NCBI RefSeq assembly: GCF_003073045.1
Contig: NC_037593.1
Location: 983,525-1,047,524 of the forward strand
Length of the DNA stretch: 64,000 bases
Source of the DNA: Pomacea canaliculata
Lineage: Eukaryota; Mollusca; Gastropoda; Architaenioglossa; Ampullariidae
Direction: 5' to 3'
Part shown: piece after piece, positions 23,775 through 63,090 of the stretch
How the letters are laid out: every line of letters begins with the position of its first letter
Position numbering within the stretch: position 1 is the stretch's first letter
Notes under the pieces: generated by a model
Told to the model about the DNA's origin: nothing
Database searches by the model: none
The model's input: the letters and a program-made list of their open reading frames with translations, nothing else
Made by a program: the position numbers and the translations under genes

Positions 23775-26700
23775 ATGGAGACGCAGAGTTCCTTTACCAT
23801 GGAACTGTCAGCTATCGTCCTCAGCTGCTTGGCAGCGATTATCTTGTGCATCATCAAACTACCGCACGTCCTTGTAGTCGACGCTGTGTACACCGTGCTG
23901 GGTGGTGCTTGTACACTGTGGTACACCGCCGATGTCCTCAATGAGGTACGAATTTCTAGTCGTTGTGCTTCAAACTAAAGTGCTAATTATTCTCCAGTCT
24001 CTGTACTTACGTACCACCGTCATGAAGTGACATTTTCCATTCTCGCTAATAAACACCACTGCGGATTGCCATTCTCGAAATGTGTGATATATATGGTATT
24101 GATGTAGACAATGAAGATGGAATCTTTGAATAACAGCTGCTGAAATAATTTGATTCACCGTCAAAATGTCAGACACGTTTTACTTGCATTAACATAACCA
24201 GTTAGATCTAGAAACTATTCAGTTTCTACATTTATATTTAGATTTAAACATTTTATAAACTTTTGCAAATGGTAAAGAACCCTTTGTAAACGTTTATAAA
24301 ATGTTTAAATGCTATCTGGGATATGTTCCCTTCTGGTTATAAAAATACAAGTGGACCATTCCATTTTTGTTTCGTTACAGCAGCGTTGTTTGATAAACCC
24401 TTACAAGTGACGTTTTTAAAGACCAACCTGAATGGTTTGCGTTTTTTGCAGATATCAGTAGATATGGACGATATAAACATAACCTGTAAATTTCAGCCTC
24501 CAAAACTGATCAGTTAATTAATTAACCGCTGCCAAAGTACGCGATTCGCACCTGCGATCAACGAGCCCCGCTAACAGTGTACTACGTGACGTTGGTACAC
24601 CATTCACGACATTGCCAGTCGTCAACACCACACAGTGTACTACGTCACGCTAACCGTGTACTTCGTAACGTTGGTACACCATTCACATTACCAGCTGTCA
24701 ACACCAATCAGAGCGACATGTCGGGTTATTCGGACGTTGAAACTGGCATTTCTCGTGCTAAAGTAGCAGTTTTTCAGAACCACGAGAAATGCAGACTGTC
24801 AGCGTCTGAATAATCTCAACTGCCGCTCATTCTCTCTCTCTGATTTGTGTTGACTGCAGGCAATGCTGTGAATGGTGTACCAACGTGACGTAGTACACTC
24901 TTAGCGGTGCTCGTTGATCGCAGGTGTGAATCGTAGTGGATAATTAATTAACAGATGGATTTGGAAGGCTGAAATTTACAGGTTAGTTTTATATCGCCTA
25001 GATCTACTGATATCTGCAAACGCAAACCGTTCAGGTTGATTTTTTAAGTCTCGATTGTAAAACTGACCTAAGCCAGCAGGCTAGAACAGCCGTCATAGGA
25101 AGCATTAAAAAATGGTACAGATGAAGAGACAGTTACTTTTATTTATTGACTTCTCCCATCCACAGTACAGCAGAGGGATCGTTCTGGACATACATCATAT
25201 CTTCTTGGCCAAGATCCGAGTTGTTAACCTTTTGACGACGACAGTCAGCTGGTTGCTGATCCGCAAGTCTGTGGACATCACTACCAGGAGTGCTGTCAGC
25301 TTCTCTCGGTTTATCGTAAGTTGCCCACGATGACAATGTTAGCTTCGGTCATTACGTCTAGTTATGATCGCCTTCATACTGAAGCTTTTGAACGCAGGAC
25401 TGCGTTATTTCATGTTCAGCTGAGTTTGTTACGTTTTGTTTGTTTGCATTTGTTTCGAGTCACCACCGCGTAGGGACAAAACAGAAAACTCTTACAAACC
25501 GACCTGTATAAAAAGGGTCAACTGTCCAAGTTAATCTGGTGATTCGATCTAAACTCGTACCTAATTAATGTAAAGCTCAAAATCAGTTCCTTTATATAGC
25601 ACTGAGCGTCCGGGATTAGGTAGTTAGCCTGACTGGTCACACCAAACCTTCTTAAAATATTCTGTGGTGTTTATGGTCTTCCAGCATCCCAACATGCAAT
25701 ATCGTCATCAGGGGCAGCTCCTTCATATGTTCTAATGAGCACGCATGATACACGTGTAAGTCGGTTACTAACCAAAGACATGTGCCGACAAATGTATGTA
25801 TTCACACCACTATAAGAATGCAATTTTTCTTCCTTTGCAGACCTACGCCATCTCTGCCATTGTCATGATTATGGCACACGGAACGAATAGCTTCACACGA
25901 GCAGTTAGTATTTGTTCCTGTGATTACACAACTTTTGATGACGTCAGTCACCGCGACCGACATGAACAAGGACGACAAGAAAGACGACCTGCAGGGCGGG
26001 CTCCAGAGGGAGGCCGCAGAAAATAAAATAGAAATGTAATCTTCGGACATGGGCATCTTTTGTAGACACTGGCATTTTCTCTGGACATGATCATTTTCTT
26101 TAGACGACATTAACGTGTTTACGAAAGGAACAACCATTTGACGCCGACTAAAGGGGGACTTGGCACTAGTACAATACTTTATATTAACAGAGTGCCAGAA
26201 TAAGAGATTAAAGATGCTTTATGACTGGCATTGCTATTTCAGTGCCACTAGCTTACAAGACTACAGAAACTAATACCGCACATCATACTTCAGCCGCAAG
26301 CCTACAAGGACACCAACAATTAGATGGCATATCATGAGCATTTACTAGGAACATTCAAATTATTTTAAGATTTTAGTTACACTGATAAAATATGCTTATG
26401 AGAGTATCACTTGTTGACTCGCTTACTACAAAGACGTTGTTAGTCGATTTAGCTAACATGAAATCACGAAAAAACCCCGCGGGACTGACGTGCTGTACAC
26501 CTGTGTCAGCATCTAGCTTACAGCACTATTCCCACCACCCTGTGGGCCGTGGTTCTGGGGATGCAGATGTTCAAAACTGGCACTCGGGTCAACGCCCACA
26601 TCCGAACAAGTGACATCAACCTCTTTTTGGTTGTGGACATGTTTCTTCACCTCGTTCTGGGCCTGGCTGACATCATTCACCCATTCGTCATCGCCGACAT

Positions 26701-29700
26701 CCAGGTGAGCAAGTGTGTCACCACCTGCTTAAACCACAGTGCGGCAAAGAGATAACAGCGCACTTTAGTGTAACTTTGATGTCCATGTGCGGTCATGTCT
26801 TTGTCGCTGTGCACATTTCATTTTAACAAGCGTTGTGTCTTGGACGTCGTGTATGTGTGCACCACCACGCGGAAATACCTTCATGATCATGAGCACATTC
26901 TTTCCCAGAATACAAACGATTGCCTTAATGCTGTCCAGACTAGGGAATTATTTCTGGACCTTAGACATGGCACTTCCCAAAAAATCGCATATTAAAAACA
27001 AAGCCAACAAGCTGTGCAGTACGAAATCAGAAATTTTCCTGAGCTGAAGATGAATACCTTAGCTAAAGCAAATACAAATATCCCCATGTAAATATTGTCG
27101 ATCATTGCCAAGTCAACTACAGCAGACATGCGCTGATGTAAATTTTGTTAAATTGTTAATTACTGTTCATCAAATCACACTTATTCTTTCTTACGTTTCA
27201 TCTTCGGCCAACGATCTCTCGAAGAACTTAGCCGTCCCATAAATGAGCTAGACGGTTTGGGACAATCAGCTTAGCGGGTGGAATGTCATGATTCTGCTGG
27301 ACACTTCCACTTGCAGTCATAGCGGCACTTGTTCCTGCAAAGCATGCGTGAAGTCGCAACTGGCCAAGCGCTTTTATGAGCACCGACCACTTGTTCCTCC
27401 TCGCTCCATCCTAGCTCCACGACCTCCTCGCATTTGATTTCCGCAATCATCAGGGACGTCGCCCAGAAGAATTACGCTGCAGCATGCCATCCATGCTTTG
27501 TTCCTTGGTGCATCGCGTGAGGCTGAAGGGGAGACACTAACCATGAACTGGGTGACTATTCATCAGCCTGATCCCTCAGTAGCTGCCCGCAATACATCAC
27601 CAGCCTCCAGATGAGAAAAAAGACAATGAGGGTTTTCCCATGCGGCCTATACCTTGGCAACGCCATGTGATTAAGCTATACTAAACAGATAGGCATAAAA
27701 CTGCTCTGACCTAGACAACTTCCCGCTGGCGAAGAACCGTAACATCCTGGCTACGGACGACGACCCTGTATACTTACAGGTCTTACGCAAGGAGGTCCAA
27801 CAGTCTATCCACAACCTGAAGGGTGGGAAGTCTCCAGCGGTCGATAACGTTCCAGTGGAGTTTCTCAAATTCAGGAGAGGAGACAGCGAACATACTGCCC
27901 TATGTTTGAAAATATGGAAAACTAAACAATAACTGCGAGAATGGATGCAATCCCTGGTCATACCCTTACCAAAAACAGGGGAACCAGAGGCAGTGCCCGA
28001 ACTACCAAGTGATTAACCTCATTAGCTATCCAAGCAAAGTTATGCTGAAAGTGATTCCGAACCCCTAACACCAATGACGGAGGAATTTATCGCGGAAGCC
28101 TCGACAGAAACTTACAGGTTGTGGCATGTGATGCGGAAATTCGACATTGAAGAGGGTATCTTCCAAACCATCCAGTCGTTTTACACCAGTTCTGGGAACT
28201 CAGTACTCCTTAATAATTAGGTATGAGAACGCTTTTCGACGACGGTAGGTATTCGACAAGTCTGCCCTTGTAATGAGACCCGATGTCTCAGGTAGAACCA
28301 ACGTCTCCTCATGGTATGCGCATGCGCTTAAGGTCACAATTCATGACTGGTTTGAAAGGCCCTTTCCTGTAAGACTCGATGTCCTGGGACTATTTAATAA
28401 AACTACATACACCGAACATCTTCCATGATCGCAAATCTCAAGTCATATTGTGCTCTCGACTGATTTGGTTTGATCGACGACTGTTGAAGAATAATGGAAC
28501 ATACTGGCTCACTCTTTGTTTGATAACCTGCACCAGCGGGTGTTTGATCGTCTGCTAACGAATAATTGAACGTCAAATCTAAATGAAAACAACATGGAAA
28601 ATAAAAACATATACAACTGACGCTGGTTTCGACAAATAAAAAATCACGAAAATGTCTGCCAATCCATTGAGACATGTGCCGTAGAAGACACCCGTTCATC
28701 AACACCACCAGACCCAGTGTCTGCCTCTGGACAAACCACAAGGAGACGTAAGTTCTGAGACATCTTGTGTCGTTACACAGGCACAACATCTTTCGTGGGC
28801 TTCGTGATAGGTTTACCACAACCATGAGCACTGTTCGCCTCCTCACGCCAAACGTTTCTTGTTTTCTGGGTCACTCCCACAATAGCATCTACCTACATTC
28901 TTAACTCTTTCTTCTTCGTGTCAGGGGAATGCTTCCGTGGCTAGGTTACATTTTTTGCAAGCATCATTACTTTCGATTTCAATAATTGTTTTCTCTGAAC
29001 AATGGTTCTACGAACCTTCCGATTCGCTCCTCTATTAGCCTGGCAAAGCCGGGCACGTTTGTGAAAACCGTGAACTGAAAACTGAGTTGAACTTAAGACG
29101 AAGGAACACGTGTACTAGATGAAGCTGGGGTCCATCATCCGTGTTTTGCTTGACAGCAACAAGCAGCAGCACTATCAACTAAACTAATCACAAATACAAT
29201 AGGATGGGGAGGATTGCACACCATGCATGTCGTCTTTAAGGGCCTGGTTTGGAAGGGCTAGGTGGCGTGATTGCCTCATGCGGACCACATGACTCATCAG
29301 ATGTTCTCTGTCTTTAAGGACCTGGAGCTGGACGATCTGCACGTGTACCAGTACCGCTTAAACGGCGCCGTCAGTCTTGGCAACGCCGCCTTTTCATGGG
29401 TAGCACGTCGCTTCCGGTTTGGCGACGAGAAGCGCGCCGTCATCCTGAGCCATTTCTTAGTGAGTTTGCTTCACTTGGTCTAATGTGACGACGATGTGCA
29501 ATGTCTGCATAAATATCTTAGATACTTTCGTCTGTCAACAACTCTTTTACATCTACTTCGACAGAATGTCTTCACACACGCATATCAACAAAAACACATT
29601 ACACATACACTGCCCTTTTGAGAAAATGATTAATGATTAGTCGATAAAGTATCAATTATACCCGGATAGGAGCTGTCGATACAATGCCTTACACAAAACC

Positions 29701-31297
29701 TGACCTGTCTACAAAAATGTCTTACATATTTCCCAACTGCTCGAAAAAAAAAGCTATTTTGCGCATAGTATGCAAATCGTGTTAAACCACTCGGCGTCCT
29801 CTGAAAGGTAAGAACCTTTCTTTCTCTCACACAAACCCTTGATACATGTACTACAAAATTTGCAGCTGGGCACACTTTTAACTCCTGAAGTAAACGAAGC
29901 ATAAGTCCTAGGTGCCTATATTGTCAATGGCTCGTTTCGGATCCTAATCTACGGTGTCAGCCTCCCCAAGAAACTGAGTCTTTGCAGTCGAAGATAGTTC
30001 GAAGGAAGAACTTTACAGTTTGTACACCAATGTCCACATGTTATACACGCTGGAAAATCAGCGACACACGCTGACTACTTTAGTAGCGACTTCTGCTACT
30101 TCAACAGCGACACGCACTCCTCAACGTTGACTAAAGGCGACACACGCCCGACACAACAATGAAGCCATCGGCTAGTCTCACTCTGTCTCCACTCCGCGAC
30201 TATTTCCTCTAATACTCTCACTCAGGGCTTATATACAGTGATACCTCGGTTCTCGAACATAATTCGTTCCGGGAGGACGGTCGAGAACCAAATTGTTCGA
30301 GAACCGAATCAATGAAACCCAAAGGAAATAATGGAAACTGGATTAATTTGTTCCAAGCCCCAGAAAATGCCTATTTATTGGCCTAATTTGTATATAATAT
30401 ATAGAAAAACATGAGTCTCAACAAGAAAAAAGAAATAAAAGTGTATTTATTAAAACAAAAACAAAAACAAAAACAAAATGTACTGTACAGTACAGTAAAT
30501 TGTGTTTCATTTACTGTACCTGTACCAAACTTTATGGCAGGAGGGAATGAATGTGGAGGGAGGAGGGAAGGGGGATGGTTATTGTCACTGATGACGCAAG
30601 CTGGGTCGAATGAACGCCATTCGGCTCAACTCGGCTCAACTCGGCTCAACTCGGACGTTCGGATGTTCGAGTTCCAAATATTTGTTCGGATTCCAAGACA
30701 AAATTTTCTCGAATTTCCTGGTCGAATACCGATTTGGTCGAAAGTCAAGGCGTTCGAGAACCGAGGTATCACTGTACACTGTACAAGTTATCTAGAAACT
30801 TCCCGCATCTCTTCACACATGCGCTGTCTCACATCGAACATTCCAGTTACCAAGGCTTGCGTCAGTCACACTTGCTCATGCACTTGCTAGAATGATCTAG
30901 AGTAGACGGCTCTAGTCACAGCCGCGCGGCGGTCATCGGCAGGTCAGGCGGGGTCACATACCGCATCAAAGCGCTGACGGCGCCGGACGACACCTGGCAC
31001 AGACAGCTACCACATTTAGTTTGTAATAGTGAGGCTTAGGTGTGGTTGAGACGCAGCACTAATTGTGATGGTTACTTGCAGAGCTGCGTGGTGATTCTGG
31101 CGGGAATGACGACGTGGCTGTCTTCCGGGATGCTGACCTTCACCTTCAGCACGCAGATCATATACCTCCGCAACGTCCTCATCATGCTGCCCGCAGTCAT
31201 CTGCTTCTTGCGGAAGGACAACGGCGCCTTCTGGTTCCAGCACATATTCCAGCACTTCGCCAAGAAAGGCCGGTTTGTCACAATACTAAAGTGCTGA
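23775..31297 (+). CDS. Uncharacterised multipass membrane protein with two repeated modules (317 aa, six exons)
   Basis: I do not recognise the family. Exons: 23775-23945, 25166-25315, 25841-25903, 26510-26704, 29301-29459 and 31082-31297, all phase 0, GT-AG, giving 317 aa. It is very hydrophobic, with about eight membrane spans. These include 9-32, 36-55, 69-90, 100-122, 132-148, 163-183, 212-228 and 238-262, with further hydrophobic stretches to about 288. The halves at 33-150 and 168-290 look alike. Each has Leu-Val-Val-Asp, then an Arg 42-44 residues later, then Ser-Trp, then Ala-Val-x-x-Ser-x-Phe about 13 residues on. Introns 1 and 4 fall 24-25 residues after the LVVD motif. Introns 2 and 5 fall just after SRFI and SHFL. 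The tail RFVTILKC is short and basic. No signal peptide beyond the first span, and no enzyme motif. For exon 4 the acceptor at 26509 keeps the frame. For exon 5, 29301 or 29319 would both do. Introns carry a fold-back, a LINE and a mariner-like MITE. Confidence 0.75.
24398..25065. mobile_element. Long fold-back (inverted-repeat) element
   Basis: The left arm (about 24398-24760) and right arm (about 24780-25065) are reverse complements over nearly their whole length. Examples are TGCAGATATCAGTAGAT near 24447 against its complement near 25008, CACCTGCGATCAACGAGC near 24549, and GCATTTCTCGTG/CACGAGAAATGC flanking the loop near 24770. The left arm also has an internal tandem duplication of about 70-85 bp (24571-24700) that the right arm lacks. 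No coding capacity. It fits a MITE or Foldback-type element. Lies in intron 1 of the 317-aa membrane protein gene. Confidence 0.7.
27690..28275 (+). mobile_element. LINE fragment (N-terminal side of the reverse transcriptase), family A
   Basis: On the + strand a broken frame reads LRKEVQQSIHNLKGGKSP, then VDNVPVEFLK, then Glu-Trp-Met-Gln and SLVIPLPKTGEPE. This is the fingers region of a non-LTR reverse transcriptase. Further on come remnants of WHVMRKFDIEEG and Thr-Thr-Val-Gly-Ile-Arg-Gln-Val-Cys, the usual VGVRQGC block with changes. Multiple stops and frame changes; no endonuclease was seen. Lies in intron 4 of the membrane protein gene. Confidence 0.7.
30236..30774. mobile_element. Non-autonomous mariner/pogo-like element (MITE), 539 bp
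   Basis: Terminal inverted repeats CAGTGATACCTCGGTTCTCG and its complement are perfect over at least 24 bp and continue imperfectly inward. They are flanked by TA on each side (30234-30235 and 30775-30776), the Tc1/mariner target duplication. No transposase frame remains. Inside are an A-rich stretch and GGCTCAACTC tandem copies near 30620-30650. Lies in intron 5 of the membrane protein gene. Confidence 0.85.
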
Positions 31298-32489: not shown

Positions 32490-32725
32490 GGAAACGTAGT
32501 GTGGTCCCAGGGTATAGTCATGTAGTGTGGTTACAGGGTGTAGTCCCAGGGTGTAGTCACGTAGTGTGATCCCAGGGTGTTGTCACGTAGTGTGGTCCCA
32601 GGGTATAGTCACGTAGTGTGGTCCCAGGGTGTAGTCACGTAGTGAGGTCTCAGGGTGTAGTCACGTAGTGTGGTCTCAGGGTGTAGTCACGCAATGTAGT
32701 CCCACAGTGTTGTCACGTAGTTTTG
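32490..32725. repeat. 26-bp minisatellite
   Basis: About nine imperfect copies of a unit close to GTGGTCCCAGGGTGTAGTCA followed by CGTAGT. Copies differ by one to three bases. Non-coding. Confidence 0.85.
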
Positions 32726-36010: not shown

Positions 36011-39000
36011 ATGAGTACTGATACAACAAACAACACCCCGTCTTCAAATGGAGAGGGGTCGACGACAGAAGATTCTGCAGGAACCTATGAATGTAATATT
36101 TGTCTTGAAACAGCGAACGACCCAGTTGTCAGCATGTGCGGACATTTGTTTTGGTATGTGTGTGCGTAGATTGAGCAGAGAGTAGTTCGGTCGGTGGTAG
36201 TAGTAGAGAATGTTGCTAGCACAGGCCATGCTATCCTATTCTCTTATTTTTTCTGAATGATTCAATCCAATTCAATGCAATATAGCAGTCGTGTGTGCTT
36301 TGTTTTGCTGAGAAATAGAACATACTAGAATGTTTAAGAAATCAGCGAAGTCGAATACATGGATTGTCATCGGATTTAAGATCAAAACTTTACCCTGGGG
36401 TAAAATCTTTAATGAAAAATAGTACAGTGTATGCGCTAAGTACAGTTGATTTTTTTCACACAGCAATAGACTGGTGTAGTTATTTTCCTATTCCACTACA
36501 TAATACAACCAATGCAAATCTGTGCATATGGCTAAAAATGCCCCCATGACTTATAACCAATAAATAAAGTGTGAACCTAGTGTGAACAGGAGAGATGACT
36601 TGGAACACTAGATTTACGTAGTACTGAAGTATTAGACTTTTACTTTTTGCAAATTAGGGCATACTAATCAAGGAAAAATAAAGACTGCATTCGGACAAAA
36701 TGCTCATATCTATATATTACATTTATATGCTTTTTTAAATTGTTAACTTCATTTGAGCATACTCTTTGTGTTAAATATTGGTACACATGCTGAACACAAG
36801 TATGTTCGCCTGTCCATCACTGGTGCTAATGTTTGTGTCACTCCAGTCCTTTTGTCCTTTTGTTGTTAAGTTTATACATCATCAGAATCATTCATTTTTA
36901 TTTAACATAAGAAACAAATATAGACCAATCTTCTTTTAGTTGGCCATGCTTGCACCAGTGGTTGGAAACAAGGCGGCAGAGACCGACATGCCCTGTGTGC
37001 AAGGCTGGAATAAGCAAAGACAAAGTGATCCCCATATATGGTCGAGGTAATCCAAATCCACAAGATCCAAGGTTGGTTCAGGAAATGATTAATCTTTTCT
37101 TAGTTTTCTTCTGTATCTTTCTCTCATTGAAAGAGAATTTTTTGTGGAGAAGGGGGGAGTGGTGATGGTGGTATTATTATCATTGTGCATGTATAGAACA
37201 AAATTTTAATGTGTAATAAAGAGTCACTTATTATTTCCTCTACGCCAGATTTTTTAGTAGAAATAATTTATATTTTATGCAGTCAAATGCAAGTTCACAT
37301 TTTCTGGTACCTCTGCTATTTTCATCCTCTCTTTCACCATTAACGGGCCACATTCTGATATACTATTTGTTTGTGTGTGTTTCTTTTTAAAGAGAAAAGT
37401 TGCCACCAAGACCACCAGGACAGAGATCTGAACCTGAAGGCTCGGGGGTTAGTGTTTCACCAACAACCATCTCTTGCTGTGCTTATGTGGTTACCTCATC
37501 CTTTTCCAGTTTTAAATGATAAGAGAGAAACTTAAAAGCCAGTTGAAAGCTCGTCATGGTGTTGTTTAGTAATCAAAAGTAGCTTGTAGATATGACTGAC
37601 AGATGCCCTAGACCAGTGGTTCTCAAAGTATTTGGACCCCGGACCACTTAAGTAAAAAATATGGCGGACCACCAAGGCCTAAAAATCAGTCTGTACTATG
37701 AATTTCAAATTTAAATTGCTGCATTTGTTTCATTACAATTCAAAACTAAATGTCCTTTTGTGACAGTAGTATAGTAATAAGTGGACATAAAACTACGTTA
37801 TTTGTAATTAAAATGTTAATGCGAGGAATGCATCACTTTTAACATCACTTTGCCGACATATGACAACTGTCAGCCGCAGACCACCTGACTTATGCACTTT
37901 GAGAACCACTGCCCTAGACCAAAGTAATGTTTCCTCTGTGTTTGGTGTGGTGAAGATGCACTCCTAGTCATGGCATCCACTTCACACTATGTATGAATGC
38001 ATGTGAATCAACATACAAGCCAGTTGAGAACATGCTAATGCTGGGAGTGTGCTGTGCAGGGAAAGAAAGACTGCTGGATAGTGTGTTACTGAAATTGCCA
38101 TAAAATCATAAATGGCAGTACAATCTAAAGCAGCATCAAATGAATAGCAGCTGTTGCAAACTGCTGAAATTTCTGCATTTGTTTCTAGGCTTTTCACAAC
38201 TTTGGATTTGGTGGTGATGGAGGTTTTCAGTTTTCCTTTGGAATAGGAGCTTTTCCTTTTGGCATCTTTGCCTCAGCATTCAACTTTAATGATGGAAGAC
38301 CTGCACCTCGTAAGTACATGGGGCAACATTTGTATCTATGTAGACTGATGTTTTCCACACATTAAAAAGTGCTCCTAAATGTGAGGCTAAACTAGCCATT
38401 CCGAGACATGTTGAAAGGTAAAGTCATGCAAGCCAAGCTCAAGGGGTTGCTTGTACATGTTTCTCAACTTTAAAATTGTTCAAAAGAAGCAAATTAAGAA
38501 ACATTATTAAAAATCACTTTTATACTAATTAGATGCATTGCTTGGATAAAACATTTTGTGTGAGATTCTAAATTTAAAACATCTCAAAGCTGTTCCAAAT
38601 CTGCCAAAATAGTGATATCCATTGTTTTCAGAGTTGGTTTCATAGAAAAACTTGTGTTTACAGGTAAATAAACAGGAAATTTCATGACAAAATAAAATTA
38701 CAAAGAATTGTTTGAGCAGTTTGGATTTCAATAACCCAATATGATAATAACTATTGAAGAGATTATGTTGACTACTAACACAAGTACAGATAGCTCTGAT
38801 ATAATGAATGTTCATCAATCTACTGTCTTGGATTAAAATTGTCAAATGTGACTTACATGTGATTGGTTTAAACTCTTTGGCATTTCCACGGTATTTACTA
38901 TGCTCACCAGCCAGATCTGCCACACATGCAAGTTAATTAATTAATAAAATTAATCAAACTTGAATTTGACAAGTAAACAATCCATCTAGTAGCTCTGCCT

Positions 39001-48146: not shown

Positions 48147-58206
<10,060 letters not shown>

Positions 58207-62199: not shown

Positions 62200-62628
62200 T
62201 CAGAAAAATGTTTGTCCTTCAGGCGGCTGTGGCACTTTATTTTCCTTCAGTGTCATACACTCACGAATCCCTGCTAAACATGTTTGAATGTTCATGCCTG
62301 ACGTCCACTGTCGAAGACATGTAACTTTTTTGGGATCCACTACACCCGTCTCTTTGTTGACACAAGACAAATTAATTTTTGTCTGGAACTGAACTGTTGG
62401 CGGCATATCTGGGTACCTGTCACCACAATGCAACCTCACAGTGTAAATGCGGTTCTCAAACTGCGTTCTTGGTGGACCTAAAATGGAGCCTGTCCAATGC
62501 GAAAGAGTCATATCTTCGTCATCCTCTAGCCCCCAACTAAGAGTACCATCTCCGCCACCCTTTTGGCCTTCTTCAAGCTCATCAAGTAGTCGGAAGTTAC
62601 GAGGAACAACATAGTCACTGCCCGCCAT
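62200..62628 (-). CDS. UBE2V2: Ubiquitin-conjugating enzyme E2 variant (UBE2V/Mms2 type), intronless
   Basis: Catalytically inactive E2 partner that, with UBC13 (UBE2N), orients ubiquitin for Lys63-linked chains in DNA-damage tolerance and NF-kB-type signalling. The 142-aa frame starts [17 protein letters not shown], continues with [19 protein letters not shown], Gly-Pro-Pro-Arg-Thr, [20 protein letters not shown] and [16 protein letters not shown], and ends [10 protein letters not shown]. This is full length against UBE2V2 (145 aa). No catalytic-site cysteine stands where active E2s have it. The start chosen, [11 protein letters not shown], aligns with the family; the frame stays open 20 codons upstream to 62688, taken as 5' UTR. 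The N-terminal half is conserved and the C-terminal half clearly more diverged. The lack of introns is unusual for this family and suggests a retrocopy that kept its frame. UBE2V1 versus V2 is not resolved. Confidence 0.88.
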
Positions 62629-63090
62629 GTTAGTTTCGTGACTTTCTAGCAATTGTGGGCAGAACGCAAAGACCAGTGATGTCATCACGTTGTGTTGTTC
62701 GTTATAGGATCATCTAAAAACTATGACGTATAAGCAAAGAAAATTTCTTGAAACCAAATTAAATTAAAAATACTACACAAAATAAATAAAAGTATACTTT
62801 ATACAATTGTTTAAACAAAGAATGTGTACCTTCAAAATGTTTTACAGGATGTTTTAATGTTTGTGACGCTACCGTTTTCGTGTGTGCACTATGATAATTG
62901 TTTATTGAGCTGGTTCATGTGACATCATCAAAACATGCGTAGAGGACATGGGGGACATGGTCGACATGACCAAAAGGGCACTATAGTGGTACCGCTGGAG
63001 TTATCATGAATATTTTTGCCTGGTTTTCATGGTTGGATACTGAAGCGTTAAAGAATTGTGGGTTCACCCTACCCCAACTACCTTAAATTT
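62629..63090. other. Upstream region of the UBE2V-like gene
   Basis: AT-rich. Nothing coding recognised; presumably holds the UBE2V promoter, but no TATA or other box was identified. Confidence 0.3.

Follow-up and report, generated by a model that had tools for sequence, protein, structure and literature searches.

Large membrane proteins can arise by duplication and fusion, a route that is already known. A gene of the snail Pomacea canaliculata raises the question of whether its product was made in this way. An initial annotation of the letters alone proposed that a multi-span module had been duplicated in tandem and joined within one gene, with intron positions matching between the halves. 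If this is true, both copies have kept their exon structure and the fusion seam may survive as well, so that the order of events could be read at one locus, and a family without an assignment would be added to the mollusc membrane proteome. If the halves belong to two genes, or resemble each other by chance, this is an ordinary gene without an assigned family. We examined the gene in a window of 64,000 nucleotides, the whole stretch of DNA that was analysed (positions 983525–1047524 of one contig), and in the P. canaliculata genome searched here (440,159,624 bases, 24 contigs).

Exons and coding signal

The initial annotation divided the gene into six exons separated by five phase-0 introns, as follows:

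23775–23945, + strand: exon 1, with the N terminus, a hydrophobic stretch (TM0) and span A1 with LVVD, in an open phase-0 frame
25166–25315, + strand: exon 2, with span A2, Ser-Trp and AVxxSxF, by frame, codon and splice scores
25841–25903, + strand: exon 3 in its initial version, with span A3
26510–26704, + strand: exon 4 in its initial version, with span A4 and then span B1 with LVVD
29319–29459, + strand: exon 5, with span B2, Ser-Trp and AVxxSxF, by frame, codon and splice scores
31082–31297, + strand: exon 6, with spans B3 and B4, a basic tail and the stop TGA, by frame, codon and splice scores

Splicing these exons as described gave an open frame of 311 residues with introns 1–5 after residues 57, 107, 128, 193 and 240, which bears out the joined frame and the intron phases. 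Coding potential was scored with a codon model trained on 3,158 codons taken from ten regions of this genome with matches to Pfam transporters or chaperonins. GC content partly drives such scores, so we weighed frame contrasts and not absolute values. All six exons (6/6) scored positively and higher in the annotated frame than in either other frame; exon 1 reached 18.1 bits, with −1.7 and −6.8 in the other two. Because the six exons score as coding, and best in that frame, they are likely to be real coding sequence.

Splice sites were scored with weight matrices, and the scores are expressed here as the share of the 4,174 GT or 3,996 AG sites that are as good. Apart from the junction between exons 3 and 4, the four other donors were equalled by 0.3–5.8% of GT sites and the four other acceptors by 0.03–9.5% of AG sites. 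These include the donors of exon 1 (3.16, top 2% of GT) and exon 4 (6.51, top 0.3%) and the acceptor of exon 3, the best among the sites of the model (9.66, top 0.03% of AG).

Similarity between the halves

The landmarks on which the duplication had been proposed are present in the spliced protein. LVVD starts at residues 33 and 168, with introns 1 and 4 placed 24 and 25 residues past its first residue; intron 2 falls directly after SRFI and intron 5 directly after SHFL; and Ser-Trp and AVxxSxF are spaced nearly equally in both halves, as counted by eye on the spliced sequence. Significant similarity of the halves on sequence alone did not emerge, as the plain local, end-to-end and ungapped scores all lay within the shuffle range. 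The best local alignment scored 39, a value reached by 226 of 2,000 full shuffles and by 381 of 2,000 shuffles that preserve hydropathy (permutation within ten-residue blocks). The end-to-end score was reached by 820/5,000 and 1,410/5,000 shuffles, and the best ungapped segment was ordinary (115 of 200 shuffles reached its score).

Among 190 offsets tested with a banded alignment, the score peaked at 45 at offsets −20 and −21, the LVVD offset being −20, and was 43 at the offset of introns 2/5 (−22); the maximum outside offsets −24 to −19 was 34. At the offset of introns 1/4 (−19) the score was only 25, which makes duplication slightly less likely and its absence slightly more so. A score of 45 at the landmark-chosen offsets −22 to −20 was matched by 16 of 1,000 block shuffles, and with any offset allowed by 11 of 150; half-to-half tests anchored on landmarks or introns stand at the 0.5–2% level and the free-offset test at 7%. 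When exons were compared in pairs, 2/5 (z 2.65, equalled by 18 of 1,000 shuffles) and 3/6 (z 2.37, 28 of 1,000) stood out, pair 1/4 was unremarkable (z 0.92, 168 of 1,000), and none of the six mismatched pairs exceeded z 1.22.

We then compared the introns. The correspondence claimed in the initial annotation survives in the plain alignment for introns 2/5, which coincide exactly, but not for the other pair, intron 1 mapping 7 residues before intron 4. After realignment of 3,000 block shuffles, introns 2/5 coincided exactly in 41, and in 15 of these introns 1/4 were also no farther apart than the observed 7 residues; random placement of introns gave one exact coincidence in 1.5% of trials. Only 0.17% of 20,592 position pairs match as well as the 12 residues that precede introns 2 and 5, and four of the five sequence windows around these introns are at 3.3% or less. 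For introns 1/4, 13–84% of position pairs were as good in all five windows, and this pair by itself gives no support to duplication. When the windows were anchored on LVVD instead, the one covering the 20 residues that start with the motif stood at 0.5% and the other four at 4–76%.

These results bear on a rival reading, in which an ordinary membrane protein of several spans was never internally duplicated and its short shared motifs and coinciding introns are products of chance in hydrophobic sequence. We consider this rather unlikely: the ease with which shuffles reach the local alignment score, or the banded score at some offset, the missing local similarity at introns 1/4 and the choice of landmarks after looking all speak for it, whereas the intron-aware tests and the diagonal of exon pairs, on which 2/5 and 3/6 stand out, speak against it. 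The tandem duplication of a multi-span module is moderately backed by the intron-aware and exon-pair tests and by the charge pattern described below, but not by plain sequence similarity; we regard duplication of the halves as plausible and unproven, with moderate support overall.

The junction of exons 3 and 4

The join between exons 3 and 4 is the weakest point of the gene model. Its donor at 25904 scored −1.85 (21.8% of the 4,174 GT sites are as good) and its acceptor at 26510 scored −1.12 (27.2% of the 3,996 AG sites). Three other GT sites within 25850–26100 outscore this donor, including 25943, which is in equal phase. The coding frame also seems to switch inside exon 3. In a codon scan, the signal lay in the annotated frame between 25841 and about 25880, after which it moved to the +1 frame, where it peaked at 8.9 bits per 20 codons near 25940, formed a strong coding window at 25938–26006 and stopped at the TAA at 26037; the change point is not sharp, with positions from 25876 to about 25930 within one bit. 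Although the peak was matched by only 0.8% of held-out open 20-codon windows, the shifted stretch is unremarkable over 40 or 50 codons (7.7% and 14.5% of held-out windows as high). This GC-rich stretch scores on the minus strand too, so the coding signal is not clean.

Two alternative exons follow from the shifted frame:

25841–26035, + strand: alternative longer exon 3, from the frame scan and change-point scores, with its donor at 26036
26524–26704, + strand: alternative exon 4, phase 2, with acceptor TTACAG

The shifted frame is open over 25869–26036, with AATAAA at 26022 and the TAA at 26037–26039. Donor 26036 is phase 2 in this frame and outscores the eight other GT sites in 25850–26100 (0.28; 9.2% of all GT as good). 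Acceptor 26524, whose phase 2 agrees with that donor, scores better than 26510 (1.01; 11.8% of AG as good), and the coding score is negative over 26489–26524 and positive from 26525. Four AG sites farther upstream outscore 26524, but they are cut off from exon 4 by its upstream stop. With these exons, the gene would pair as 1/4, 2/5 and 3/6, with a charged linker between the halves. This arrangement requires a one-base frame break, and the halves can share an orientation only if the hydrophobic beginning of exon 4 does not span the membrane. An alignment of the whole halves with the frame-shifted exon 3, which was picked after inspection, scored 45, reached by 47/2,000 and 80/2,000 shuffles. 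A genome search with the DNA of 25841–26040 matched only itself, leaving no second copy to arbitrate, and on splice and coding scores the exact border between exons 3 and 4 is provisional. The exon mapping of the initial annotation is affected accordingly: the 2/5 pair stands out, but the equation of exon 3 plus the start of exon 4 with exon 6 rests on the worst-supported splice junction.

A joined open frame for a single translated protein exists, with weak splice sites at its seam. The second half lacks an in-frame ATG upstream of residue 146, and a stop lies just 5′ of exon 4; this half therefore requires an upstream exon or a start inside exon 4, a point in favour of one gene. Such an upstream exon is part of an alternative that we judge unlikely, in which two adjacent genes lie in tandem and the halves are paralogues, not parts of one protein. 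The upstream gene would consist of exons 1–3 with an extended exon 3, and the downstream gene of exons 4–6 with a first coding exon that starts at ATG 25938 or 25962 and is spliced from 26036 to 26524. ATG 25962 opens a frame with a phase-2 donor that fits acceptor 26524, and ATG 25938 is in the same frame; the weak seam, the AATAAA at 26022 and the strong coding window at 25938–26006 are likewise in keeping with two genes. However, the upstream gene would have a fourth span only with a frame-shifted exon 3, one exon would have to serve both genes, and the minus-strand score of the GC-rich stretch counts against the coding window.

A decayed gene, with a genuine frame break in exon 3 and a locus that has lost the capacity to produce the whole protein, would account for the apparent change of frame but is improbable. 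Every exon apart from exon 3 is open and resembles coding sequence, and by the 40- and 50-codon comparisons the switch could be noise. A residual indel is also possible, because the assembly, according to the paper on the published Pomacea genome (PMC6129957), was built with PacBio reads, the animal being highly heterozygous, and was corrected with Pilon.

Charge pattern and membrane topology

Span limits were drawn by eye on a hydropathy table, and the counts that follow depend on them. Lysine plus arginine (K+R) number 3 and 4 in the loops between spans 2 and 3 of the first and second halves, 3 and 6 in the stretches after span 4, and 1 and 0 in the loops between spans 3 and 4; the loops between spans 1 and 2 are acidic in both halves. 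The positive-inside rule is an established basis for reading orientation from charge. Because the K+R-rich loops fall at equivalent places, both halves are predicted to lie in one orientation. One shared orientation, with an even number of spans in each half, favours a fused parallel dimer and, on these by-eye spans, disfavours an inverted-repeat transporter with odd-span repeats of opposite orientation. For the extra N-terminal hydrophobic stretch (residues 10–28), whose topology is uncertain, the second half offers no clear counterpart.

Searches for relatives

The protein had been said to belong to no named family, and this holds for Pfam, NCBIfam and the PDB. Profile searches of Pfam and NCBIfam gave no match near its cut-off; with the first half, NCBIfam returned two matches far below the cut-offs (E 0.052 and 1.1), and a PDB sequence search returned two chains of an unrelated phosphatase at E 1.8, all of which we took as chance. 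The 2TM domain (PF13239) was rejected for residues 105–151, where it scored 11.6 and 13.0 bits (E 0.11–0.3; the cut-off is 24.8), and this weak match vanishes with the alternative exon 3. The p53-inducible 11 family (PF14936) was considered as a small multi-span protein of similar layout. Its alignment was no better than chance (854/1,000 and 769/1,000 shuffles reached the score), its profile was absent among matches up to E 10, and the exon matches of the snail's own PF14936 gene, which sits on contig C3, break elsewhere, as judged by eye.

Within the snail genome, a protein search of limited depth, run one exon at a time, revealed no convincing paralogue or single-module relative, and tblastn of the flanks of the window, 100 kb on the upstream side and 80 kb on the downstream side, found no convincing tandem paralogue (best non-self E 0.057). 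Two marginal genome matches (E 0.515 and 0.701) were set aside. One sits in a tandem-repeat array; the other is interrupted by two stops where it matches and lacks a matching open frame of 60 residues, and its E of about 1e-4, obtained only in a small pre-selected database, is not evidence. Pattern searches of viral and prokaryote contigs for relatives of the second half gave 3 and 86 matches, none of which was confirmed. Orthologues in other eukaryotes may well exist. A literature search on intragenic duplication with intron positions, fused four-span repeats, internal symmetry and gastropod orphan genes found nothing on this snail gene, and a bacterial promoter scan, Rfam and a tRNA search were uninformative or empty.

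Repeats and neighbouring features

Two introns contain repeat elements:

24415–25047, no strand assigned: foldback repeat in intron 1, with inverted arms 85–87% complementary
30234–30776, no strand assigned: terminal-inverted-repeat element in intron 5, with 25-bp perfect inverted ends

The foldback repeat has many dispersed copies in the genome, with at least 152 matches from the 40 scored of 1,020 candidates. For the element in intron 5, at least 39 more copies, 91–95% identical, were found among the 40 scored of 584 candidates; it is perhaps a fairly recent non-autonomous DNA transposon. Intron 5 also holds a GC-rich dispersed repeat at 30890–31020, with at least 39 other matches of 74–93% identity among the 40 scored of 51 candidates. 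A missed exon at 30902–31006 was rejected, since this GC-rich, coding-like block is the dispersed repeat, whose codon score mimics an exon.

Downstream of the gene lie tandem repeats of 26 and 39 bases (32496–32721). Elsewhere in the window, 36911–37162 encodes a partial RING finger below Pfam cut-offs, and the residues after it presumably resemble RNF185/RNF5. Plus-strand open frames over 49124–58203 encode CUB, LDL-receptor A, trypsin and two MAM domains (Pfam), which look like parts of at least one mosaic protease or extracellular protein; a Thr-rich repeated stretch is found in the frame at 49623–50849. The minus strand at 62203–62709 has a ubiquitin-conjugating-enzyme domain (PF00179, E 2.3e-14), which we take to resemble a UBE2V-type gene.

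Discussion

Our preferred reading, which we hold tentatively, is a single gene whose halves derive from tandem duplication and fusion of a three-exon, roughly four-span module, giving a fused parallel dimer. An ancestral module of this kind would have been duplicated in tandem, and the two copies would then have fused into a polytopic membrane protein with four spans per half in the same orientation. The product would most likely form two similar four-helix bundles side by side, related by an axis perpendicular to the membrane, and may act as a pore, ligand-binding or scaffold unit, and not as an inverted-repeat transporter of the alternating-access kind.

It is quite unlikely, in our estimate, that the gene represents an undescribed animal family in which the three-exon module was duplicated and fused with its seam still readable and a terminal exon turned internal. 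At such a seam, donor 26036 overlaps the would-be stop codon of the upstream copy (ATG TAA read as AT/GTAATC), and the AATAAA ten bases before it may be a leftover polyadenylation signal or chance.

The snail gene is a membrane protein without a family match, and the architecture proposed for it is already of a known kind. A review (PMC3962082) states that units can be duplicated and fused around a symmetry axis parallel to the membrane normal only if each has an even number of spans. Unlike in established fused dimers, homology of the halves of the snail protein is not established by sequence; like pseudo-symmetric, even-span proteins with parallel repeats, it has two candidate four-span repeats with the same charge orientation.
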